Under the pieces are notes generated by a model. That model was given only the letters and a program-made list of their open reading frames with translations, had not been told where the DNA came from and searched no databases. A stretch of 63,281 nucleotides of DNA from NCBI GenBank assembly GCA_030445775.1, contig JASUTC010000003.1, forward strand, positions 1 through 63,281, in the 5' to 3' direction. This document shows, one piece after another, positions 12,740 to 24,671 of the stretch. Position 1 is the first letter of the stretch. Every line of letters begins with the position of its first letter. Both the position numbers and the translations under genes were made by a program. This stretch comes from Thermotogaceae bacterium. GTDB lineage: Bacteria; Thermotogota; Thermotogae; MWEM01.

Positions 12740-13480
12740 TTGAAATTTGAAGGGAAAATTACCGTTATTACCGGGGCTGCAAGGGGAATTGGTAGGGAGA
12801 CAGCCCTGTTATTTGCAAAACATGGATCAAAAGTCATCGCTTGTGATGTTTTAGACGATGATTTACAAACTTTAGAAAATGATTCCAGGGAAATGACCGC
12901 CGGTTCAATTAAAGGTGTCCATTTGGATGTGACCAACAGAAAAGAGATTGACAAAGTAATCGGAGAAATTAAAGAAGAATTCTCAAAAATTGATATACTG
13001 ATCAACAACGCTGGGATTACCCGCGATGCTTTCCTGATGAAAATGACTGAAGAACAATGGGATCAGGTTATTAATGTCAATCTTAAAGGTATCTTTAACA
13101 TGACCCAGGCTTGTTCCAGACTCATGAAAAACGATGGGGGCGTTGTTTTGTCCACCTCTTCGGTAGTTGGTGTTTACGGAAATATTGGTCAAACAAATTA
13201 TGCAGCCACCAAATCAGGTGTCATTGGTATGACCTATACATGGGCAAAAGAATTGGCCAGGTATAAGATTAGAGTAAATGCTGTTGCCCCCGGTTTTATC
13301 AAAACACCGATGACAGAAAATCTTCCACAAAAAGTATTGGATTACATGACAGAAAAAACACCTCTGAAGATGATCGGTGATCCAATCGATATTGCCAATG
13401 CCTTTCTGTTCCTGGCAAGTGATAATGCCAGATATATAACAGGACAAGTACTTGGTGTAGACGGAGGTCTTGTTATTTAA
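12740..13480 (+). CDS. SDR oxidoreductase, FabG/PhaB-like 3-oxoacyl reductase
   Basis: 246 aa classical short-chain dehydrogenase, TTG start at 12740 behind GGAGGTG. Seen: cofactor loop TGAARGIG, NNAG, catalytic Ser in STSSVVG, YAATKSG (Tyr and Lys), and the C-terminal GQVLGVDGG. It would interconvert a 3-oxoacyl and a 3-hydroxyacyl thioester with NAD(P)H. An Asp (CDVLDDD) after the second strand rather than an Arg hints at NAD(H) preference, which would suit the oxidative direction; this is inference. It is first in the eleven-gene cluster that also holds a thiolase and a CoA-transferase, so acyl-CoA rather than ACP is the likelier substrate. Confidence 0.9.
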   Translation: MKFEGKITVITGAARGIGRETALLFAKHGSKVIACDVLDDDLQTLENDSREMTAGSIKGVHLDVTNRKEIDKVIGEIKEEFSKIDILINNAGITRDAFLMKMTEEQWDQVINVNLKGIFNMTQACSRLMKNDGGVVLSTSSVVGVYGNIGQTNYAATKSGVIGMTYTWAKELARYKIRVNAVAPGFIKTPMTENLPQKVLDYMTEKTPLKMIGDPIDIANAFLFLASDNARYITGQVLGVDGGLVI

Positions 13481-14782
13481 ATGATATCCAACAAGGAGAA
13501 ACCAATCAGAAGAATCCCGAAATCAGAGAAGGGTGAAAAAACATGGAAATCCCTTTTTGAAAGTGCACAGCGCATTTTCTTGGAAAAGGGTTATCATAAA
13601 GCTTCTGTATTGGCTATCTCTAAAGACGCCAAGGTCTCTCCTGCAACTTTTTACCAATATTTCAGTTCAAAAAACGAGATCTTTGAAATCATATTGGAAA
13701 CCTTTCAAAATGAATTTTTCAACCTTTTATCCAGCATCATCCATTCAGAATTGACTTTGGAGGAAAAAATAAAGATTCTTATCAACCGAGTTTTTGATAC
13801 ATTTTGGAATTTCAGATATGAGTATAAAGTATTTCGTGAAGCTGAATTTATAGATAAGGAACTCTGTCTTAATTTCCATTTAAAGATAAAAGCTATTTTA
13901 GAAAATAACCCGGACTCTAATTCTCAATCCCAAGACCCTGATCCCTTTTTTTGGTTTTTGTTTGGACCTTTGTTTTACATCGCAGGTTATTGGATTCTTT
14001 GGAATGATTCAAAAGTGCCGGAAGGAACACGAGAAACCCTTTTGCAATTCTATTTAAACGGTCTTTCAATCAGAAAATTCAGCGTGGATGAAAAGGTTTT
14101 CTCCACTCTGAATGCGTTCCGATTAGATGATGAAAATATTCTGAATAAAGGGGAACAGAGTAAAAAGAGATTATTGAATTCAGCTGAATTACTATTTGGA
14201 GAAAAGGGATATTTTGAAACAACCGTTCATGAAATCTGTCAACAATCGAATCTGAGTGCCGGGGCGTTTTACTTGTATTTCCCGGGAAAACAGAATGTGT
14301 TATCTGAGTTAATCAAAAAAACCAGTAAGGAACTCAGATTTGTTTTAAAAAAGTATTCAGAAAGATTTTCAGACAGAAGGGATATGGAAATTGCATCGCT
14401 GAAAGGATTTCTTGAATTTTTCAAAAAACATTCTAACATGTATGGTGTTGTAAGAGAAAGCGAATTTATCGACAATAAAATCACATTGGAATATTACGAT
14501 TCCTTAAAAAAGCCCTATATAAAGGTATTGGATCATGCTAAAGAAAAAGGACAGATTCGAGACTACGATTCCGAAACACTCTCCATGATCTTAATGGGAA
14601 TCGGACATTTATTAGGACAATCTCTTTTGATTTTATCGGATAAATCATCAGAGAAATTTGAAAACTACCTAAAACCACTTTCACACTTGATGATGAATGG
14701 CGTTTCGAAGAACACTCCCTGGAATTTGGTTCACAAATTACACGGGATAGAATCTGAAAGCAATTCAACAACAGAAAAATGA
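13481..14782 (+). CDS. Double TetR-type transcriptional regulator
   Basis: 433 aa, about twice a normal TetR. Two complete TetR N-terminal helix-turn-helix domains are visible: the first at about residues 18-66 (RIFLEKGYHKASVLAISKDA ... TFYQYFSSKNEIF), the second at about 228-276 (LLFGEKGYFETTVHEICQQS ... AFYLYFPGKQNVL). Each is followed by about 140 helical residues of a ligand-binding domain, with a shared REAEFID / RESEFID motif in both halves, which shows internal duplication. ATG at 13481 directly follows the SDR stop. Probably controls this operon through the repeat at 12685-12704, with an acyl-CoA or related ligand; that is inferred. Confidence 0.88.
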   Translation: MISNKEKPIRRIPKSEKGEKTWKSLFESAQRIFLEKGYHKASVLAISKDAKVSPATFYQYFSSKNEIFEIILETFQNEFFNLLSSIIHSELTLEEKIKILINRVFDTFWNFRYEYKVFREAEFIDKELCLNFHLKIKAILENNPDSNSQSQDPDPFFWFLFGPLFYIAGYWILWNDSKVPEGTRETLLQFYLNGLSIRKFSVDEKVFSTLNAFRLDDENILNKGEQSKKRLLNSAELLFGEKGYFETTVHEICQQSNLSAGAFYLYFPGKQNVLSELIKKTSKELRFVLKKYSERFSDRRDMEIASLKGFLEFFKKHSNMYGVVRESEFIDNKITLEYYDSLKKPYIKVLDHAKEKGQIRDYDSETLSMILMGIGHLLGQSLLILSDKSSEKFENYLKPLSHLMMNGVSKNTPWNLVHKLHGIESESNSTTEK

Positions 14783-14792
14783 GGAGGAACGA

Positions 14793-15992
14793 ATGAAAAA
14801 GATCTTTATTACCGGAGCAAAAAGAACAGCCATTGGAACGATGGGAGGCACCCTTAAAAATACATCAGCCGTTGATCTTGGTGTAGTAGCTGCTAAAGCG
14901 GCTATGAAACAATCCGAAATCAATCCTGAAGAAGTAGATGAAACCATAGTCGGAAATATACTTTCCGCCGGTATTGGAATGGGACCGGGAAGACAAGTCA
15001 GCATATACGCCGGTGTACCGGAAGAGAATCCGGGATATTCAGTGAATATGCTATGTGGATCGGGAATGAAATCAGTGATGATTGGAGCCTCAGACATTTT
15101 GCTTGGCGAGGCTGACTGTGTGCTTTGTGGTGGTATAGAAAATATGAGTATGTCACCTTATCTGTTACCAAAAGGGCGTTTTGGATACAGACTGGGAGAT
15201 GGAAAAGTTGTGGACCATATGGTCAACGACGGTTTGACGGATGTTTTCAACCACTATCATATGGGTTTGACTGCAGAGAATATTGCGGAAAAATATACGA
15301 TATCAAGAGAAGAACAAGACCAATTTGCCTATGAAAGTCAGCAAAGGGCTGCAAAGGCCATAGAAGAAGGCAAATTCAAAGACGAGATAGAACCCGTTAT
15401 CATCAAAGGAAGAAAAGGAGATACGGTTTTTGAAGTGGATGAACATCCAAGATTGACCGATTTGGAAAAAATGGCAAAACTGAGACCGGCATTTAAAAAA
15501 GACGGGTCAGTAACGGCCGGAAATGCCTCCGGTATCAATGACGGCGCTTCCATGACCATTTTGATGACGGAGGATAAGTGTGAAAAGCTCGGGGCGAAAC
15601 CATTAGCCGAATTGGTAGCCTTTGCACAGTATGGGGTAGATCCGGCATTTATGGGATTGGGTCCCGTTGGCGCCATCAAAAAAGTTCTTAAAAAAGCCGA
15701 TATGAGTCTTAAAGACATGGACCTTATCGAATTAAACGAAGCCTTTGCCGCTCAGAGCTTGGGTGTCATTAAAGATTTGACGGAAGAACATGATGTTTCG
15801 AAGGAATGGCTCATGGAAAGAACCAATGTGAACGGAGGGGCAATAGCCTTGGGGCATCCCATTGGATGTTCAGGAAACAGAATCATCGTCACCTTATTGT
15901 ATGAGATGAAAAAAAGAAACCTTAAATACGGGCTGGCAAGTCTTTGCATTGGCGGAGGAATGGGAACCGCCGTTATTATTAAGAACGTATAG
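14793..15992 (+). CDS. Acetyl-CoA C-acetyltransferase (thiolase)
   Basis: 399 aa, usual thiolase II length; start ATG at 14793 with AGGAGG. The three active-site motifs are intact: nucleophile Cys about 88 in NMLCGSGMKS, GHPIGCSG (His about 355) and CIGGGMG (Cys about 385). It either condenses two acetyl-CoA to acetoacetyl-CoA or cleaves 3-oxoacyl-CoA with CoA. The loop GMGPGRQVSIYAG and the covering loop are as in biosynthetic-type (PhaA/ThlA) thiolases. In this cluster it can supply or consume the 3-oxoacyl-CoA handled by the SDR enzyme. Confidence 0.94.
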   Translation: MKKIFITGAKRTAIGTMGGTLKNTSAVDLGVVAAKAAMKQSEINPEEVDETIVGNILSAGIGMGPGRQVSIYAGVPEENPGYSVNMLCGSGMKSVMIGASDILLGEADCVLCGGIENMSMSPYLLPKGRFGYRLGDGKVVDHMVNDGLTDVFNHYHMGLTAENIAEKYTISREEQDQFAYESQQRAAKAIEEGKFKDEIEPVIIKGRKGDTVFEVDEHPRLTDLEKMAKLRPAFKKDGSVTAGNASGINDGASMTILMTEDKCEKLGAKPLAELVAFAQYGVDPAFMGLGPVGAIKKVLKKADMSLKDMDLIELNEAFAAQSLGVIKDLTEEHDVSKEWLMERTNVNGGAIALGHPIGCSGNRIIVTLLYEMKKRNLKYGLASLCIGGGMGTAVIIKNV

Positions 15993-16072: not shown

Positions 16073-17104
16073 ATGTCAAAAGAATTAATTGGTATCAGGG
16101 GAATCGGTACCTATTTCCCCGAGAAAATTGAAACTGCTCAGTATATAGCAGAAGAGACAAACATCCCGCAGGATGTTATAGAAAAGAAATTTGGCGTCTT
16201 GAAAAAAACCGTTCCAGGCCCAGAAGATACCGCCAGTAATATGGGGTTATGGGCTGCTCAAAAGGCGATTAAAAAGGCACAGATAAACCCTGAAGCAATC
16301 GATCTGGTGATATGGAACGGGGCACAGCATAAAGATTTTCCCTGCTGGCTTGCCAGTCTTGATGTTGCCCATCGATTAGGAGCCATTAATGCATGGGGTT
16401 TTGACATGGAAGCCATGTGCGGTTCCATGATGGCAGGTTTTGAGACGGCTAAGAGTCTCATGAGAAACAACGACGAACTGAAAACGGTTTTATTGTGTTC
16501 AGGTTACAGGAATAACGATTTGATCAGTTATCAGGAGCCTTCCTCTTCTTTTATGTTTGATATCGGAGCCAGTGGTGCAGCAGTCGTCTTGGAAAAGGGT
16601 TACAACAAGAATGTGATTCTATCTTCCTCTTTTAAAGGGGATGGATCATTCTCAAGAGGATGTGTTGTCCCGGTGGGAGGCAATGACCGCTGGCCCATGA
16701 AAGAAGAAGATGTCAAAGATTTCCATTTTAAGATCCAAGGAGATCCCAAGGCATTTAAAACCAAACTGGGCGAGAAGACATTACCCAACTTCTTCTGGGT
16801 CATTCGAGATTCTTTAAGAAAATCGGGTTATTCACAAGAAGATATCGATTATCTTGCCATTTTACATTTTAAGCGTTCTGCCCATGACTTAATCTTGGAA
16901 GAATTGAATATCAGCCCGGAAAAGACCACTTATCTCGATGAATATGGTCATATTGGTCAAAATGATCAAATCATTTCATTGGAGATCGGATTAAAGAACA
17001 ATAAAGTGAAAGACGGGGACATTATCGTTATGGTGGGAGCCGGCTTAGGCTTTGTCTGGGCATCTTCAGTGATTCAATGGGGTATATATCAAGGCGGGGA
17101 GTGA
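16073..17104 (+). CDS. KAS III-like (FabH superfamily) enzyme with Cys-His-His triad
   Basis: 343 aa, start ATG at 16073 (GGAGG at 16060-16064; an in-frame GTG at 16058 has no ribosome site). It has the thiolase-fold organisation of FabH: active Cys about 116 in EAMCGSMMAG and His about 265 in AILHFKRS. Where FabH has the catalytic Asn (GNTSAAS) this protein has EYGHIGQND, that is His about 293. Loss of that Asn is seen in FabH relatives that do not run simple decarboxylative condensation (for example acyl transfer or non-decarboxylating Claisen types), so its reaction here is open. It lies between thiolase and CoA-transferase genes, again pointing to acyl-CoA chemistry. Confidence 0.78.
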   Translation: MSKELIGIRGIGTYFPEKIETAQYIAEETNIPQDVIEKKFGVLKKTVPGPEDTASNMGLWAAQKAIKKAQINPEAIDLVIWNGAQHKDFPCWLASLDVAHRLGAINAWGFDMEAMCGSMMAGFETAKSLMRNNDELKTVLLCSGYRNNDLISYQEPSSSFMFDIGASGAAVVLEKGYNKNVILSSSFKGDGSFSRGCVVPVGGNDRWPMKEEDVKDFHFKIQGDPKAFKTKLGEKTLPNFFWVIRDSLRKSGYSQEDIDYLAILHFKRSAHDLILEELNISPEKTTYLDEYGHIGQNDQIISLEIGLKNNKVKDGDIIVMVGAGLGFVWASSVIQWGIYQGGE

Positions 17105-17109
17105 TTTTT

Positions 17110-18411
17110 TTGAACGGATTTTACAAAGATTATGCGGCAAAGAAAACGGATCATCATCATGTTTTATCACAGATCAAATCCAATGATGTAATTGTTTGTG
17201 GCATGGCAGCCACGGAACCTCAACAACTCTTAACCGATTTACACACTATCGCTGACAGGGTAAAAAACGTTGAGGTGTACACATGCCTAAATATGAAAGG
17301 CTATGAGTTTTACATGAAAAAAGAATATGAAGACTCTTTTATCAACAATTCCTGGTTCCATAATGCAGCGATTCGCAGTGCTATTAAGAGTGGTTTAAGA
17401 ACAGCTGCCTATGTCCCAAACAATCTGCATGAAGCCGGTACAAACCTGCTTGCATTACAGGATCCGGACTTTTATGTGGGAATCGCATCTGAAATGGATG
17501 AACATGGTTTTTTTACCTGTTCTCTTAGTGCAACCTATGAGAAAGACGTGATCGAGAAAGCAAAAAAGGTGGTTCTTGAAGTGAACAAAAACGCCCCAAG
17601 GACCCATGGGGATACACAAATTCACATTTCTCAGGTTGATTGGCTGTATGAAGTCGACTATCCCATTCCTGAACTGCCGGATGTACAAGCCAGTGAAACC
17701 GATGAAAAGATTGCCGGTTATATTGCAGAACTCGTACATGATGGCTCAACACTTCAGATTGGTATTGGCGGGATTCCCAATGCGGTTGCCGGATTACTCA
17801 AGGATAAAAGAGATTTGGGGATTCATACTGAAATGTTTACCGAATCCATGATTGACCTTTTTAAATTGGGTGTCATCACAAACAGAAGAAAGACTCTTTG
17901 GCCGGGAAAAGCCATCTGTACTTTTGCATTAGGCTCAAAGAAAATGTACGACTTTATCCAGGACAATCCCGGTGTCTGGTTATTAAGGGGAAGTTATGTC
18001 AATGATCCTTATGTCATTGCCCAAAATGACAATATAGTTAGTGTGAACACAGCCATAATGGTGGATTTGACAGGACAGGTGTGTTCTGAATCAATCGGAA
18101 CAACTCAATTTAGCGGAACGGGTGGTCAGCTGGATACCCACAGAGGTGCTGTCATGAGTAAAGGCGGCAAAGGAGTTATTGCCCTCTCGGCTAGAACTCG
18201 AAAAGGGGCTTCCAAAATCGTTCCCATGCTAAAAGCAGGTTCTGGAGTTACCGTTCCCAGACAGGACTTGGATTGGGTTGTCACGGATTTCGGTATTGCT
18301 AAATTAAGGGGACTTCCAGTGAATAAAAGGGCAAAGGAATTAATCAGAATAGCACATCCCGATGACAGGGATGACTTAAAAAAACAGGCTCATGACATTG
18401 GGCTTTTATAA
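17110..18411 (+). CDS. Family I CoA-transferase (4-hydroxybutyrate CoA-transferase / acetyl-CoA hydrolase type)
   Basis: 433 aa from TTG 17110, chosen because GGAG (17098-17101) sits 8 bases upstream; the frame is open to an ATG at 17077, and a GTG at 17101 is too close to the ribosome site. The active-site Glu that forms the glutamyl-CoA intermediate is in IHTEMFTESM (about 241), close to its position in clostridial 4-hydroxybutyrate CoA-transferase. Gly-rich segments LQIGIGGIPNAV and QFSGTGGQLD and the late motif DLDWVVTDFGIA are typical of the family. It would move CoA from acetyl-CoA or another donor to a carboxylic acid. The exact acid is unknown. Confidence 0.88.
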   Translation: MNGFYKDYAAKKTDHHHVLSQIKSNDVIVCGMAATEPQQLLTDLHTIADRVKNVEVYTCLNMKGYEFYMKKEYEDSFINNSWFHNAAIRSAIKSGLRTAAYVPNNLHEAGTNLLALQDPDFYVGIASEMDEHGFFTCSLSATYEKDVIEKAKKVVLEVNKNAPRTHGDTQIHISQVDWLYEVDYPIPELPDVQASETDEKIAGYIAELVHDGSTLQIGIGGIPNAVAGLLKDKRDLGIHTEMFTESMIDLFKLGVITNRRKTLWPGKAICTFALGSKKMYDFIQDNPGVWLLRGSYVNDPYVIAQNDNIVSVNTAIMVDLTGQVCSESIGTTQFSGTGGQLDTHRGAVMSKGGKGVIALSARTRKGASKIVPMLKAGSGVTVPRQDLDWVVTDFGIAKLRGLPVNKRAKELIRIAHPDDRDDLKKQAHDIGLL

Positions 18412-18428: not shown

Positions 18429-19622
18429 ATGAAGAAATTGTTATTAATCGTTTTGGTCGCAGCTATGATTTTTTCAACAGGTTTTAGTGCGGAAAATTCA
18501 ACAAACGGAATAACCGACGATTCAGTAAAAATCGGTACATTCCAAGCGCTTTCGGGAGCAGTAGCCTTTATTGGTGTTTCAATGAACAAAGGAATGGAAG
18601 CTTACTTTAACTGGATCAATGAAAATGGTGGTATCTACGGAAGAAAAATCGACCTGATTTCAGTTGACGACCAATTTGTTCCTTCAAAAACAGTCATCGA
18701 AGTAAAAAGACTTGTCGAACAGGACAAAGTATTTGCAATCGTTGGTGGCCTTGGAACACCTGGATGTCTCGCAGTTATGGACTATTTAAATGAAGGTGGG
18801 GTTCCATTTGTATACCAGGGAAGCGGTTCAAGCTTGCTATCTATACCTCCGAAAAAGTATATTTTCTCAGTACAGCCAAACTATTCCATTGAAGCACCCA
18901 TTGTTGGAAAATATCTTACCGAAGTGGCAAACAAAAAGAGAATCGGTATGATTTACAGAGCTGCTGAAGATGGAAAGGAAGCTTATGCTGCACTGAGGGC
19001 ATGGTTAAGGGAAAACGGAAAATCAGATATGTTGGTTAGAGCCATAGCCGTTGATCCTGCACAAACATCCTTTGACAATGAAATCATCAAAATGATGCAA
19101 TCCGGAGTCGATGCAGTTTACCTGTTAACCTTTACCGATCAGACGCCAAACATCCTGAAACAATCCAGAGATTATGGGTTTGAACCATTATTTGTTTCCT
19201 GCTATCCTAATGCTGAACCGAAACTTATTCAGTTAGCTGAAGGAGCCGCAGAAGGAATGGAAGCTATGGCCTGGGTTGATTTAAATGATCCTGAAGCTGA
19301 GAATTATTTAAAATATATGGATATTTTCCAGGCTACATATCCGGATGAAATTCCCGATGCTTATGCTGCAGCAGGATTTATAGCCGCTGAATTGTTCACT
19401 GAAGGACTTAGAAGAGCGGGAGAAAATCCAACCAGAGAATCTTTAGTCGAAGGCCTCGAAAGCTTGAACGGATGGCAAGGTATTATTACACCGATTATAA
19501 CTTATTATCCGTATGATCCTGAAAATGAAAAGGCCAGACTCGGTTTGAATGCCATGTATATCTTACGAGTTGAAGGAGATCAGATGCTAAAGGCAATTGA
19601 CTGGGTAAAAATGGGAGAATGA
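18429..19622 (+). CDS. Liv-type ABC transporter substrate-binding protein
   Basis: 397 aa periplasmic-binding-fold I protein (Peripla_BP_6). A signal peptide spans about 1-20 and lacks a lipobox Cys, so it is either released or retained by other means, notable if the organism has no outer membrane. Seen: VKIGTFQALSGAVAFIG, GRKIDLISVDDQFVPSKTV and the hinge FAIVGGLGTPGC. The ligand pocket of LivJ-type proteins binds the amino-acid ammonium with Asp/Glu and carboxylate with Ser/Thr; I cannot tell whether those contacts remain. The neighbouring acyl-CoA genes suggest a carboxylate or ester rather than leucine. Strong ribosome site (AAGGAGG). Followed by a hairpin that probably limits read-through. 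Confidence 0.9.
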   Translation: MKKLLLIVLVAAMIFSTGFSAENSTNGITDDSVKIGTFQALSGAVAFIGVSMNKGMEAYFNWINENGGIYGRKIDLISVDDQFVPSKTVIEVKRLVEQDKVFAIVGGLGTPGCLAVMDYLNEGGVPFVYQGSGSSLLSIPPKKYIFSVQPNYSIEAPIVGKYLTEVANKKRIGMIYRAAEDGKEAYAALRAWLRENGKSDMLVRAIAVDPAQTSFDNEIIKMMQSGVDAVYLLTFTDQTPNILKQSRDYGFEPLFVSCYPNAEPKLIQLAEGAAEGMEAMAWVDLNDPEAENYLKYMDIFQATYPDEIPDAYAAAGFIAAELFTEGLRRAGENPTRESLVEGLESLNGWQGIITPIITYYPYDPENEKARLGLNAMYILRVEGDQMLKAIDWVKMGE

Positions 19623-19637
19623 TCAATTAACTATTTT

Positions 19638-19675
19638 GGGATTCGGTGTTCGAACCGAATCCCATTACTTTTTTT
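19638..19675 (+). terminator. Intra-operon terminator/attenuator between binding protein and ATPase genes
   Basis: A perfect 10-bp stem GGGATTCGGT / ACCGAATCCC (19638-19647 with 19654-19663), a 6-base loop, then ATTAC and a run of seven T. It should end a share of transcripts after the binding-protein gene, giving more binding protein than membrane parts, a common arrangement for ABC importers. Confidence 0.8.
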
Positions 19676-19705: not shown

Positions 19706-20473
19706 ATGGGTTTAATGGAAGTCAGAGAAGTAACGGTAAGATTTGGAGGTCTCATTGCAGCCTCTGAAATCACCATGGATATAGAAGAAGGAACCATTCA
19801 TTCGTTGATTGGCCCCAACGGGGCTGGAAAAACAACCTTGTTTAACGTAATCACAAGAGTAATTGACCCAAACATCGGCGATGTTCTTTTTAATGGGGAA
19901 AGTTTGTTGAAATCAAAACCTCATGAGATTATAAAAAGCGGAATTGCCAGAACATTCCAAAATCTTGAAATCTTTAAATTGATGACGGTGAGGGACAATT
20001 TTCTAGTTGGGGAACATGTGAATATAGATACTAAATTAACCGCTGAAATGTTTCAAACAAAACATATCCAAACTGAAGAAGCCAATTCAAACACTAAGGC
20101 CGTTCAAATAGCTGAGTTTTTGGGGTTAAAGAATAGATTGAACAGTCTAACCGGAATGCTCCCATATGGATTGCAAAAGATGGTGGAAATCGGAAGGGCA
20201 TTGATTTCTTCTCCAAAACTATTGCTTTTGGATGAACCAGCAGCAGGCTTAAACCCTTCAGAAACCCATTTCCTAAAGGAAGTTATCAGGGAAATCAAAT
20301 CCCAGGGTGTGACCATATTGCTTGTGGAGCATGATATGTCGTTGGTCATGGATATATCAGATTACATTACGGTCATGAATTTCGGAAAGAAGATTGCTGA
20401 AGGGATGCCTGATCAGATTAAAAACGATCCTGAAGTCATCAAGGCCTATTTGGGGGAGAGCAAATATGCTTAA
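19706..20473 (+). CDS. Liv-type ABC transporter ATP-binding protein (LivG-like)
   Basis: 255 aa. Walker A GPNGAGKTT, Q-loop FQNLEIF, Walker B LLLLDEPAAGLNP, H-loop VEHDM. The signature is LPYGLQKMVEIGRAL instead of LSYGQQR, as commonly varied in LivG. The inserted helical segment after the Q-loop (about 95-130) is typical of LivG and longer than in LivF. It energises import together with the LivF-like protein. Start ATG at 19706 after the hairpin; the weak ribosome site GCAGGTGAT lies just upstream. Its last 8 bases overlap the next gene. Confidence 0.93.
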   Translation: MGLMEVREVTVRFGGLIAASEITMDIEEGTIHSLIGPNGAGKTTLFNVITRVIDPNIGDVLFNGESLLKSKPHEIIKSGIARTFQNLEIFKLMTVRDNFLVGEHVNIDTKLTAEMFQTKHIQTEEANSNTKAVQIAEFLGLKNRLNSLTGMLPYGLQKMVEIGRALISSPKLLLLDEPAAGLNPSETHFLKEVIREIKSQGVTILLVEHDMSLVMDISDYITVMNFGKKIAEGMPDQIKNDPEVIKAYLGESKYA

Positions 20474-21170
20474 ACTAAACGATGTTAAACTCAAATACGG
20501 ATATGTTGAAGCACTTAAGGGGATTAACCTTGAGGTCAAAGAAGGATCCATCACCGCTTTACTTGGTGCCAATGGTGCAGGAAAATCAACAACACTTCGT
20601 GCCATATCCGGGCTTAATCACATTTATTCCGGAGAAATCATCTTTTTAGACCAGGTAATTCAAAATCGTTCAACCGATTATATTGTCAAGCAGGGCATCA
20701 TCCATTGCCCGGAGGGCAGAAAACTTTTTCCCGATCTTTCTGTCTATGAAAATCTTTTAACAGGGGCTTATGTGTTAACGGATAAAGAAAGAGTGAAAGA
20801 AAATCTTGAACGTGTTTATACTCTTTTCCCCATTCTTAACGAAAGAAGAAAACAAATGGCCGGAACACTCTCCGGTGGGGAGCAACAAATGCTTGCAGTT
20901 GGAAGATCACTTATGGCTGATCCGAAATTGTTAATGCTTGATGAACCCTCTCTCGGACTGGCTCCGATCATATTTGAACAAATCTTTGATACCTTAATTG
21001 AATTAAAAAAAGCCGGGACGACTATCTTTCTGGTGGAACAAAATGCGAATGCCGCATTACACATATCAGACTATGCTTATATCTTAGAAGTTGGAAAAAT
21101 ACCTCTGGAAGGTCCTGCTTCGGAGTTGTTGAAAAATGATCAAGTCAAACAGAAATATCTGGGGGGATAG
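20466..21170 (+). CDS. Liv-type ABC transporter ATP-binding protein (LivF-like)
   Basis: 234 aa; ATG at 20466 overlapping the LivG-like gene by 8 bases, with GGGGGAG just upstream. An in-frame start 72 bases earlier is rejected because the family begins near MLKLNDVKLKYG. Walker A GANGAGKST, PEGRKLFPDLSV segment specific to LivF, signature LSGGEQQMLAVGRSL, Walker B LLMLDEPSLGLAP and H-loop VEQN are all intact. Confidence 0.94.
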   Translation: MLKLNDVKLKYGYVEALKGINLEVKEGSITALLGANGAGKSTTLRAISGLNHIYSGEIIFLDQVIQNRSTDYIVKQGIIHCPEGRKLFPDLSVYENLLTGAYVLTDKERVKENLERVYTLFPILNERRKQMAGTLSGGEQQMLAVGRSLMADPKLLMLDEPSLGLAPIIFEQIFDTLIELKKAGTTIFLVEQNANAALHISDYAYILEVGKIPLEGPASELLKNDQVKQKYLGG

Positions 21171-21178
21171 GTGATATC

Positions 21179-22054
21179 ATGCAGCAATTAATATTGGGAT
21201 TAAGAGATGGAAGTTTATTTGCGTTGGTTGCTCTGGGTCTTGTTATCATCCACAGGACAACCGGTGTCTTGAATTTTGCTTACGGACATATGGGAATGTT
21301 TGCCGCCTATATTACATTCTCCTGTTATGCCTTCTTTGGATTTCCGCTGTTGTTGGCGATTTTTATGGGGCTTTTATTTGCCGTTATATTGGGAATGTTG
21401 ACAGAGAAATTCCTGTTACGCCCCATCAGAAACCTCTCTAATTCGTCGATGCTCATCATCACGTTGGGAATGCTCATGACTTTGGAAGGGACAGCCCTTT
21501 GGATCTGGAAACAAGATACCCGACAACTTCCAAATTTGATTAATGGTAAGCCTTTAATTGTCAACCTTGGCGAAACATTCTTGGTTATTACACAACAGGA
21601 TTTGTTGATTTTCATCTTAACGGCCATTATTGTTTTCGGGACCTTTTTTTATCTGAAATACACAAAAGTAGGACTGGCGGTCAGGGCATCTTCGCAAAAC
21701 GAAGAAGCTGCCAAACTTATGGGAATACCCGTTGGTGGTGTTTACGGATTTGCCTGGGGTTTTGGAGTTGCTTTAAGTGCTTTGGCAGCTATACTGGCAG
21801 CACCAAAAACATATGTACATCCAAATATGATGGTAGATCTTCAAATACAAGGCCTCACCGCAGCTGTTCTTGGTGGATTTGACAGTTTGCCGGGAGCAAT
21901 TGTAGGTGGTTTATTGCTTGGCGTCATTGAACAATTTGTTGGAGAATGGATCTCAGCGGAGTTGAAACTTGCAGTGGCTTTAATCATCATTATCGTTCTA
22001 CTGTTGATTAAGCCTTCAGGTATTTTAGGTAGATCATCCAAGAGGAGGGTATGA
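21179..22054 (+). CDS. Liv-type ABC transporter permease (LivH-like)
   Basis: 291 aa integral membrane protein with about eight hydrophobic segments. Family features: LILGLRDGSLFALVALGL at the N-terminus, the LNFAYGHMGMF motif, RPIRNLS and the coupling loop RASSQNEEAAKLMGIPV, and the late GGFDSLPGAIVGG motif. It pairs with the LivM-like half to form the import channel. Start ATG at 21179 with GGGGGGATAGG upstream; the stop overlaps the next ATG (ATGA). Confidence 0.94.
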   Translation: MQQLILGLRDGSLFALVALGLVIIHRTTGVLNFAYGHMGMFAAYITFSCYAFFGFPLLLAIFMGLLFAVILGMLTEKFLLRPIRNLSNSSMLIITLGMLMTLEGTALWIWKQDTRQLPNLINGKPLIVNLGETFLVITQQDLLIFILTAIIVFGTFFYLKYTKVGLAVRASSQNEEAAKLMGIPVGGVYGFAWGFGVALSALAAILAAPKTYVHPNMMVDLQIQGLTAAVLGGFDSLPGAIVGGLLLGVIEQFVGEWISAELKLAVALIIIIVLLLIKPSGILGRSSKRRV

Positions 22055-23829
22055 TTATGAAAAACATGAAAAATTTTATACTCTTTGCAGCCGTTCTAGC
22101 CATTTTACCCCTTCTCTTTTTAAATCAGACCTTTTTAATCAGTATTTTTTCTCAGGTGTTGATCTTTTCGATCGCCGCTTTGGGATTGAATGTGTTAATT
22201 GGCTATGCCGGACAAATTTCCATTGGTCATGCCGCTTTTATGGCATTAGGTGCCTATCTGTCAGCTGTACTGACTAAGAATTTTAATTTCCCGTTTTTGA
22301 TAACCATCTTTTTGGCGGGAGGGTTTTCCGGACTCTTTGGTTTGATTCTGGGTTTTCCGGCCTTAAGATTAAAGGGTTTTTATCTCGCCATCGCAACCAT
22401 GGCCTTTGGTGTTGCAGTTGAAAAAATTGTGGCAGCGAGTGATTTTCTGGGAGGCCATACCGGAATGACCAATGTACCCAACCCGGATCTTTTTGGCATC
22501 ACGATTTCCACAGATTTGGGGAAATATTATCTCATCGCCGTCATTACCATTATCTTATTCATCTTTGCTCAAAATCTAATGAAATCCAAAACAGGTAGAG
22601 CTTTTAAAGCCATACGAGAAAGTGAATTTGCAGCCAGATCTTCGGGGATTAACATTTCAAAGTACAAGTTGATCGCCTTTATCATAAGTGCAGTTTACGG
22701 CGGTATTGCCGGAGCACTGTATGCTCACACCATCAATTATATTGCTCCAACCGATTTTGCACTGGGTTTGTCCATCAATCTGTTGGCAATGATCGTCGTG
22801 GGTGGATTGGCTTCCCTTTCCGGAAATGTCATCGGTACTATTTTGATGGTTGCCATTCCTTTCTTTTTCAGTAGAAGCAATGTACCCATGTCGATTATTT
22901 TTGGTGTCATGCTGATTGTTGTTGTTCTGTTCTTCCCAAGAGGACTTAGCTATGCCTTATATATCTTCCAATGGAAATACCTTTGGAGACCCTATGTATG
23001 GATCAGAAAAAAGATTAGAATACTGCGATTTAAGGAGGAAAAATCAATGTTTGTTAACCTGGGTGATAAAAAAATCCATTATGAAACCGGAGGAAATCCT
23101 TCCGGAGAACCTCTGTTCATGGTCCATGGTAATTTTGCTTCGTGGAGATGGTACGAACCTGCCTTGAACAGATTGAAAGATACTCATTTCAGAGGAATCG
23201 CCGTTGATCTACCGGGTTTTGGCGATTCAAGCAACCCTGAAAGAGAAATCACCATTGAAAATTATGCCAAAGAATTGGAAGGATTTATCAACACCTTCAA
23301 TCTGAAAAAGATCAATTTAGTGGGTCATTCTCTCGGTGGTGCGGTATGCTTACGATATGCATTGAACAACCCGGATAAAATCAACCGTTTGTTGTTGATC
23401 GACTCGGCACCTGCGGATGGATTGATTACACCGGAGGAATACTATCCCGTCCTGAATTCCTATCAACATAATCGCGGACTTCTCAAGCTTGCATTGTCAG
23501 GCATGTTTCCTTCAAATGACCCGGACAAAATGCTAAACAAATTAACCGATGATGCCTTGTTGATGGATCCAAGGGCATTCTCGGGTAACGCCAGGGCTTT
23601 GGAAAAATACAATTATCTTGATGAACTATCAAAATTAAAAGCTCCGGTTTTATTCCTGGTGGGTGAAAAAGACACACTGATAACTGAGTCACTTTTAAAA
23701 CCAACGGCTGATCGTCTGCCTAATGCCGAAATAAAAGTCTTGGATAATGCTGGGCATGCGGTGAACGTTGAAGATCCTGAACGATTCATCAACATTCTGA
23801 AAGATTTTTTCGGAGGTAAAGAGGCATGA
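22051..23829 (+). CDS. LivM-like permease fused to an alpha/beta hydrolase
   Basis: 592 aa. Residues 1 to about 305 are a LivM permease: LNVLIGYAGQISIGHAAFMA, RESEFAARSSGINI coupling loop, GGLASLSGNVIGT. After the usual LivM end (FFPRGL) there is a basic linker of about 25 residues and then a complete alpha/beta hydrolase from Met 333: oxyanion strand MVHGN, nucleophile elbow GHSLGG (Ser about 427), acid in GEKDTLIT, and base in NAGHAV. There is no stop between them. The hydrolase ATG (23047) keeps its own AAGGAGG, so both a fusion and a free hydrolase may be made. LivM C-termini face the cytoplasm, which would place the hydrolase at the inner mouth of the importer. A single-base error joining two genes cannot be excluded. 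Confidence 0.88.
   Translation: MIMKNMKNFILFAAVLAILPLLFLNQTFLISIFSQVLIFSIAALGLNVLIGYAGQISIGHAAFMALGAYLSAVLTKNFNFPFLITIFLAGGFSGLFGLILGFPALRLKGFYLAIATMAFGVAVEKIVAASDFLGGHTGMTNVPNPDLFGITISTDLGKYYLIAVITIILFIFAQNLMKSKTGRAFKAIRESEFAARSSGINISKYKLIAFIISAVYGGIAGALYAHTINYIAPTDFALGLSINLLAMIVVGGLASLSGNVIGTILMVAIPFFFSRSNVPMSIIFGVMLIVVVLFFPRGLSYALYIFQWKYLWRPYVWIRKKIRILRFKEEKSMFVNLGDKKIHYETGGNPSGEPLFMVHGNFASWRWYEPALNRLKDTHFRGIAVDLPGFGDSSNPEREITIENYAKELEGFINTFNLKKINLVGHSLGGAVCLRYALNNPDKINRLLLIDSAPADGLITPEEYYPVLNSYQHNRGLLKLALSGMFPSNDPDKMLNKLTDDALLMDPRAFSGNARALEKYNYLDELSKLKAPVLFLVGEKDTLITESLLKPTADRLPNAEIKVLDNAGHAVNVEDPERFINILKDFFGGKEA
23032..23049 (+). promoter_or_regulatory. Internal ribosome binding site and ATG of the hydrolase domain
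   Basis: AAGGAGG at 23032-23038, 8 bases before an ATG at 23047 that is in frame with the LivM-like reading frame (332 codons in). The spacing and strength match the best initiation sites in this window. Confidence 0.7.
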
Positions 23830-24632
23830 ACCTTGAATTAACAAATGGCGGAAAAATATATTACGAAACCTATGGGCAACAAGGTCCATGGGTGGTTTTT
23901 CTCAACGGAATCATGATGAGTACCGCCAGTTGGGAGGGTTTTAAAGAGTCGATATCAAAGGATAATCGCCTGTTGTTGATGGACTTTCGGGATCAGGGAA
24001 ATTCCAGTAAAATCGAGAATCAAGATTATACATGGAAACTACACGTTAACGATCTTTTGGAATTGCTGGATCATCTGAAAATCGATCAAATCCACATGTT
24101 AGGTGTTTCATACGGGGGACAAGTTGCCCTTGAATTCACAAGAGAACATCAGGACCGATTGGCTTCACTGCTCTTGGTAAATGTGACTCCCAAAGTATCT
24201 CGTTTCTTACAAGCGATTAGTGATTCATGGGAGTTAGCGGCCAAGTTAAACAGTGGATCGGATTTTTTTACCATCGCCATTCCACCCATCTATTCAGATG
24301 TATTCTATGAAGAGCAGTACGACTGGCTTCAAAAAAGGCAAGATATCTTCGAAAAAATGCTGACAAAAGAATGGTTTGAGGGTTTCACCAGATTGTCAAA
24401 AAGCGCGAAGGATTTTGATTGCTCGGATCTTATCAGCAAAATCAAAGTTCCAACACTTGTTCTAAGTGCTGAAAAGGACATTCTCACACCTGCTGAGAAA
24501 ATGAATGAAATGGCCTCTCAAATAAAAGATTCTGTCTATCTACAAATCCCCAATGCGGGTCATGCAGCCTTTTATGAAAAACAAAAGGCATTCTTAACAG
24601 CAGTAAAAGGCTTCCTTTCCATAAATAAATAA
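23826..24632 (+). CDS. Alpha/beta hydrolase, last gene of the Liv/acyl-CoA cluster
   Basis: 268 aa, ATG overlapping the previous stop (ATGA) with GGAGGTAAAGAGG upstream. Nucleophile elbow GVSYGG (Ser about 96), acid in SAEKDILTP, base His in NAGHAAF; the oxyanion strand reads FLNGIMMS instead of HG. It is clearly a paralogue-like partner of the hydrolase domain fused to LivM but shares only the fold motifs. Likely a cytoplasmic esterase, lactonase or thioesterase of the imported compound; the substrate is unknown. Confidence 0.88.
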   Translation: MNLELTNGGKIYYETYGQQGPWVVFLNGIMMSTASWEGFKESISKDNRLLLMDFRDQGNSSKIENQDYTWKLHVNDLLELLDHLKIDQIHMLGVSYGGQVALEFTREHQDRLASLLLVNVTPKVSRFLQAISDSWELAAKLNSGSDFFTIAIPPIYSDVFYEEQYDWLQKRQDIFEKMLTKEWFEGFTRLSKSAKDFDCSDLISKIKVPTLVLSAEKDILTPAEKMNEMASQIKDSVYLQIPNAGHAAFYEKQKAFLTAVKGFLSINK

Positions 24633-24647
24633 CCAGCCAAAAATTAG

Positions 24648-24671
24648 GCCCGCTTATGCGGGCTTTTTTTT
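24648..24671. terminator. Terminator closing the acyl-CoA/Liv cluster, possibly bidirectional
   Basis: GCCCGC-TTAT-GCGGGC followed by eight T on the plus strand. On the minus strand the same stem is followed by TAATTTTT and it touches the stop codon of the thioredoxin-rhodanese gene, so it may serve both units. Confidence 0.9.

Follow-up and report, generated by a model that had tools for sequence, protein, structure and literature searches.

What does an open reading frame that runs from an ABC importer permease straight into an ester hydrolase represent, and on what would such a protein act? In the window, the whole 63,281-nucleotide stretch analyzed, the frame in question consists of the following features.

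22051..23829, + strand: fused gene encoding a LivM permease, an elbow and an alpha/beta hydrolase (592 amino acids, single frame)
22135..22923, + strand: LivM domain, BPD_transp_2 (residues 29-291; Pfam PF02653, 137.8 bits, E 4.8e-40)
22945..23046, + strand: elbow or linker (residues 299-332), basic and aromatic-rich, with a helix at 299-327 in the model
23031..23038, + strand: internal Shine-Dalgarno-like sequence TAAGGAGG (AAGGAGG at 23032-23038 plus the preceding T)
23047..23826, + strand: hydrolase domain, from a possible internal start at Met333 to residue 592 (Pfam PF00561)
23329..23331, + strand: predicted catalytic Ser427 (GHSLGG), Ser in 52/52 fused proteins
23671..23673, + strand: predicted catalytic Asp541 (GEKD), Asp in 50/52 fused proteins, the remaining 2 having a gap
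23755..23757, + strand: predicted catalytic His569 (NAGH), His in 49/52 fused proteins, the remaining 3 having a gap

The 592-codon frame is free of stops through the domain junction. It overlaps livH upstream and HYD2, a gene for a separate hydrolase, downstream by 4 nt each. An earlier description made from the DNA letters alone (the sequence-only reading) had proposed an in-frame LivM-hydrolase fusion with no stop in the linker, which translation and Pfam bear out; the GHSLGG, GEKD and NAGH motifs it listed were all found. Abhydrolase_1 (PF00561) matches residues 354-576 of the fused protein (104.1 bits, E 1.2e-29). The predicted Ser427-Asp541-His569 triad is intact and the hydrolase domain complete.

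To see how common the joined gene is, we surveyed related genomes. In a first set of 61, about half gave a full-length match. Among 103 Thermotogota genomes from the phylum, 53 have an unbroken frame across the junction and represent eight families; this count includes G054, whose frame breaks upstream of the junction. The distinct fused proteins collected number 52. A single pattern scan, of which the best 80 loci were considered, placed the same fusion in Fervidobacterium, Thermosipho and Pseudothermotoga MAGs and, beyond the Thermotogota, in MAGs labelled Spirochaetales, Bacillota and Deltaproteobacteria (the last placed in Myxococcota). A database search for LivM-hydrolase fusions, which the sequence-only reading had advised, therefore found them in the host phylum and in others. 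The case it had named as refuting, relatives always having two separate genes, did not occur, as many relatives carry the fusion uninterrupted. Presence in about half of the Thermotogota genomes argues that the joined protein is a real and old device. An assembly or sequencing artefact might be considered as the window's genome is fragmented (119 contigs), but the identical fusion on single-contig genomes, including G030, G053, G059, G009 and G058, rules this reading out for practical purposes. Frameshifts or an interruption disrupt the fused gene in two loci, L140 (G054) and L133 (G060), where it may be decaying.

The two domains are joined by an elbow with a conserved character. Between fixed motifs the linker is 55-65 residues long in the fused relatives. 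In the 52 fused proteins the elbow always has a positive net charge (+2 to +8, median +6) and about one fifth of its residues are aromatic. Its mean identity among fused proteins is 31%, lower than that of the hydrolase (43%) or the permease (54%). In the predicted structure of the fused protein (mean pLDDT 90.1, pTM 0.75), a single helix continues from where the permease ends into the elbow (299-327), after which the hydrolase fold begins. By charge and hydropathy, the most basic loops of the permease are the coupling loop and the elbow, and four membrane segments, an even number, fit between them. The positive-inside pattern and the even segment count together indicate that the hydrolase should be cytoplasmic. 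With the helical elbow of the model, they support as probable the earlier proposal that it sits at the cytoplasmic mouth of the importer. Both ends of RbsC, a member of the same superfamily, are inside. A sequence search for solved relatives of the permease domain returned none at E values up to 10.

We also examined whether the hydrolase could be made on its own. The internal ribosome site and ATG lie exactly where the sequence-only reading had put them: AAGGAGG with its preceding T matches the Shine-Dalgarno consensus over 8 nt, and 8 nt from AAGGAGG is an in-frame ATG (23047-23049, codon 333). With the most permissive criteria, a ribosome site with an in-frame start is seen in 13 of 46 linkers, against 6.1 expected from synonymous codon shuffling. 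Sites of at least 7 nt occur in five of the 46 against 0.84 expected by the same shuffling, and such sites with a start in none of 535 stretches of equal size from other parts of these genes. The linkers come from related genes and do not count as independent samples, which leaves the excess suggestive. All three members of the window's own family retain AGGAGG ahead of the same Met, although it is read in differing frames and encodes differing residues, a pattern that fits selection on the DNA rather than the protein. Most fused relatives lack the site, which is present in a few lineages beyond this family. Since the site is kept in the family and missing from most relatives, a second, free hydrolase product is plausible here and an internal start as a general feature of the fusion is ruled out. 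The earlier suggestion that both a fusion and a free hydrolase are made thus holds locally, for this family and a few others, and fails for the majority. One could go further and suppose that the window's family relies mainly on free hydrolase made from 23047, the fused form being a by-product of overlapping genes. The strong site, its spacing and its retention despite differing encoded residues speak for this, but no stop separates the domains and most fused relatives are without the site, making it an unlikely account.

The fused gene lies among the genes of a conserved operon, whose other members are as follows.

12740..13480, + strand: SDR of the 3-oxoacyl reductase type (TIGR01830, 299.7 bits, above cut-off)
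13481..14782, + strand: tandem TetR-type regulator, two PF00440 (TetR_N) stretches in one chain
14793..15992, + strand: acetyl-CoA C-acyltransferase, or thiolase (TIGR01930, 464 bits)
16073..17104, + strand: FabH-like synthase PRK06840 (NF005308, 451.8 bits, above the curated cut-off of 315)
17107..18411, + strand: CoA-transferase, butyryl-CoA:acetate CoA-transferase-like, below cut-off
18429..19622, + strand: LivK-type binding protein without the amino-acid pocket residues (PF13458)
19706..20473, + strand: LivG ATPase (open reading frame, conserved order)
20466..21170, + strand: LivF ATPase (open reading frame, conserved order)
21179..22054, + strand: LivH permease (PF02653)
23826..24632, + strand: HYD2, the second, separate alpha/beta hydrolase, present in many syntenic loci
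24646..24665, + strand: terminator-like hairpin at the operon end (hairpin analysis)

The set of synthase, reductase, TetR regulator, CoA-transferase, thiolase, LivK, G, F and H, fused LivM and HYD2 is widespread, with gene rearrangements and, in places, some members missing. Locus L118, which is syntenic, also has a two-unit regulator. Between livK and livG, at 19637-19664, lies a strong hairpin of 11 bp with a run of T after it, as expected where the output of the binding protein exceeds that of the permeases.

The residues of the E. coli LBP pocket that hold the leucine amino group and carboxylate we take to be S79, T102, Y202 and E226. In the LivK proteins of this group E226 is replaced by Tyr (60/60), T102 by Gly (60/60) and S79 by Thr (54/60). 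Having lost leucine-holding residues, the importer is unlikely to carry amino acids. Taken with the operon content, the lost pocket points to import of a non-amino-acid ester.

Which ester this might be is suggested by the relatives of the hydrolase. A profile search among solved structures puts PhaZ of Bacillus thuringiensis first at 149 bits, with the next family at 111, and PhaZ (8ynv) also has the fold closest to that of the modelled domain. Each of the 12 hydrolase members compared with NF050089, the model for intracellular PHA depolymerases, gave a match. The two enzymes share the GxSxGG serine hydrolase motif, the fold and the order of the triad. They differ in that identity is about 25%, the motif is GHSLGG here and GWSMGG in PhaZ, and the enzyme here is tethered to a permease and scores 122.1 bits, under the curated family cut-off of 300. 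In L083, an unfused Bacillota MAG operon, the hydrolase scores 311.7 bits, above that cut-off, and its neighbours are the PRK06840 synthase, a reductase, a CoA-transferase, a thiolase and Liv genes. Adjoining this operon (L083 6697-9859) are genes for a Lipase_2 protein with a signal-like start, read by eye, and a rotamase.

A search of 103 Thermotogota genomes gave no match to the PHA synthase PhaC (PF07167). A PHA store of the cell's own is therefore not the source, mobilisation of its own PHB is ruled out, and the host phylum differs in this from the setting of an intracellular PHA depolymerase. Nor was an extracellular partner matched in the window's genome, which is 86% complete, in a search for PF10503 (Esterase_PHB) and Lipase_2, so oligomers would need to be supplied by others. 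Our best guess at the substrate is short 3-hydroxyacid oligomers. With a reductase, a CoA-transferase and a thiolase present, their conversion to acetyl-CoA would be the most economical route. The 3-hydroxybutyrate oligomers suggested in the sequence-only reading are thus candidates with indirect support from PhaZ as nearest relative and from the depolymerase in L083. Use of 3-hydroxybutyrate leaves the FabH-like synthase and HYD2 unexplained. In the synthase, which is encoded in what looks like a catabolic operon, His replaces the Asn274 of FabH in 26 of 26 members of the cluster.

That His is among the evidence for a different substrate. The hydrolase could instead open a lactone or enol-lactone or cut a C-C bond in a diketo acid, with the FabH-like synthase and thiolase cleaving the resulting keto acid. 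The 3-oxoadipate enol-lactonase models rank second for the fused hydrolase and first for HYD2, though the scores of both (105.6 and 134 bits) fall short of the TIGR02427 cut-off of 255.85, and the fold neighbours include MCP hydrolases and an acyl-homoserine lactonase. Against this, the profile search favours the PhaZ family by 38 bits and the L083 operon has a curated PHA depolymerase. We regard the lactone or diketo acid reading as possible but clearly on the improbable side.

Our preferred reading, to which we give an even chance, is an importer with a cytoplasmic ester hydrolase tethered to LivM, which cuts a non-amino-acid ester, likeliest 3-hydroxyacid oligomers, on or soon after entry and so feeds acetyl-CoA formation. 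A LivKGFHM-type ABC importer would bring in the small ester, for example 3-hydroxybutyrate oligomers. The C-terminus of LivM would hold the serine ester hydrolase at the inner membrane face through the basic, aromatic-rich helix, and the ester would be cut during or shortly after entry. The CoA-transferase, reductase and thiolase of the operon would convert the released acids to acetyl-CoA, and in the window's own family the internal start may supply extra free hydrolase. Such a device would probably let cells import and cut small ester compounds at one site. If the substrate is guessed correctly, it would show an uptake route for hydroxyacid oligomers in these anaerobes; the literature searched describes no importer for them and held no fitting report on 3-hydroxybutyrate oligomer import or PHB use by Thermotogota.

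Like the known Liv/HAAT importers (LivKHMGF), this system groups the genes for a binding protein, a pair of BPD_transp_2 permeases and two ATPases, and its LivM matches the BPD_transp_2 and LivM models. Unlike them, its LivM bears a hydrolase and scores 165 bits against the LivM subfamily cut-off of 366, and the pocket residues for amino acids are missing from its binding protein. Single chains that combine a transporter with an enzyme for the carried compound include the SLC26-carbonic anhydrase and LplT-acyltransferase fusions. These are secondary carriers, whereas here a permease subunit of an ABC importer is joined to an ester hydrolase. Our literature search found neither a Liv importer nor another permease with a hydrolase fusion of this sort, in agreement with the sequence-only reading, which knew of no described Liv importer with a tethered hydrolase; this absence is weak evidence because most subscription papers and protein-architecture databases lay outside the search. 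A Liv importer with a tethered hydrolase thus appears to be undescribed, within a known kind of importer rather than a new class of machine.

The history of the fusion bears on what the tether is for. The permease tree unites the fused proteins with the split ones of genus g14 in one group (SH-aLRT 82), which adjoins unfused Caldisericota permeases from operons holding most of the same pathway genes. The hydrolase tree agrees, and the identities of the two domains correlate across 1275 pairs (r = 0.81). Both trees are quick searches with support from a likelihood test only. In g14 the permease and hydrolase are separate genes that group with the fused L045 of the same family. The Mesotoga hydrolases nest within the fused group, next to fused proteins of their own family, f9; there the LivM part is lost and the hydrolase stays in an operon with another Liv importer. 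Mesotoga and Kosmotogales are names that we infer for these genomes on a basis that includes kinship. Probably, these trees reflect one old fusion that was later separated twice, split in g14 and undone in Mesotoga. For g14 alone two independent fusions would be equally parsimonious, and the similar elbow in L045 favours a single one. From nesting we also infer transfer of the fusion to the other phyla.

Tethering is not essential, since the hydrolase has outlasted the fusion in two lineages. It is conceivable, though we think it improbable, that joining merely links the expression and amounts of the two proteins, with the hydrolase acting on a cytoplasmic compound of the pathway and its site at the importer having no kinetic role. 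The separate genes of g14, the lone Mesotoga hydrolase and the internal start in some fused lineages, that of the window included, are consistent with this. The fusion and its linker length have nevertheless persisted throughout eight families and following transfer into further phyla, and the charge and aromatic content of the elbow are conserved, which argues against the expression-only account. A stricter form of the tethered device, in which hydrolysis is coupled to import and the ester is cut as it leaves the channel, with a free enzyme from the internal start in some lineages, seems doubtful, a shade more so than the expression-only account. If it is true, the arrangement would trap the product and prevent back-flow, making it the analogue of group translocation among ABC importers. 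Because joined and separated forms occur in close relatives (g14 and Mesotoga versus the rest), the question is testable, and a permease-enzyme fusion found across a phylum offers a direct test of whether capture of a scarce nutrient improves when an enzyme is placed at an ABC importer's mouth.

The Mesotoga hydrolases may differ in location as well. In L134, L135 and L150-L154 they carry an in-frame signal-like N-terminal extension and lie mostly behind a different Liv importer. Of eight N-termini, five are hydrophobic and signal-like with a similar design, two bear a longer extension, also signal-like, and one lacks any. In Mesotoga the hydrolase may therefore be outside the cell, with hydrolysis taking place there. 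Some of these genes also have an internal SD-ATG after the signal-like extension.
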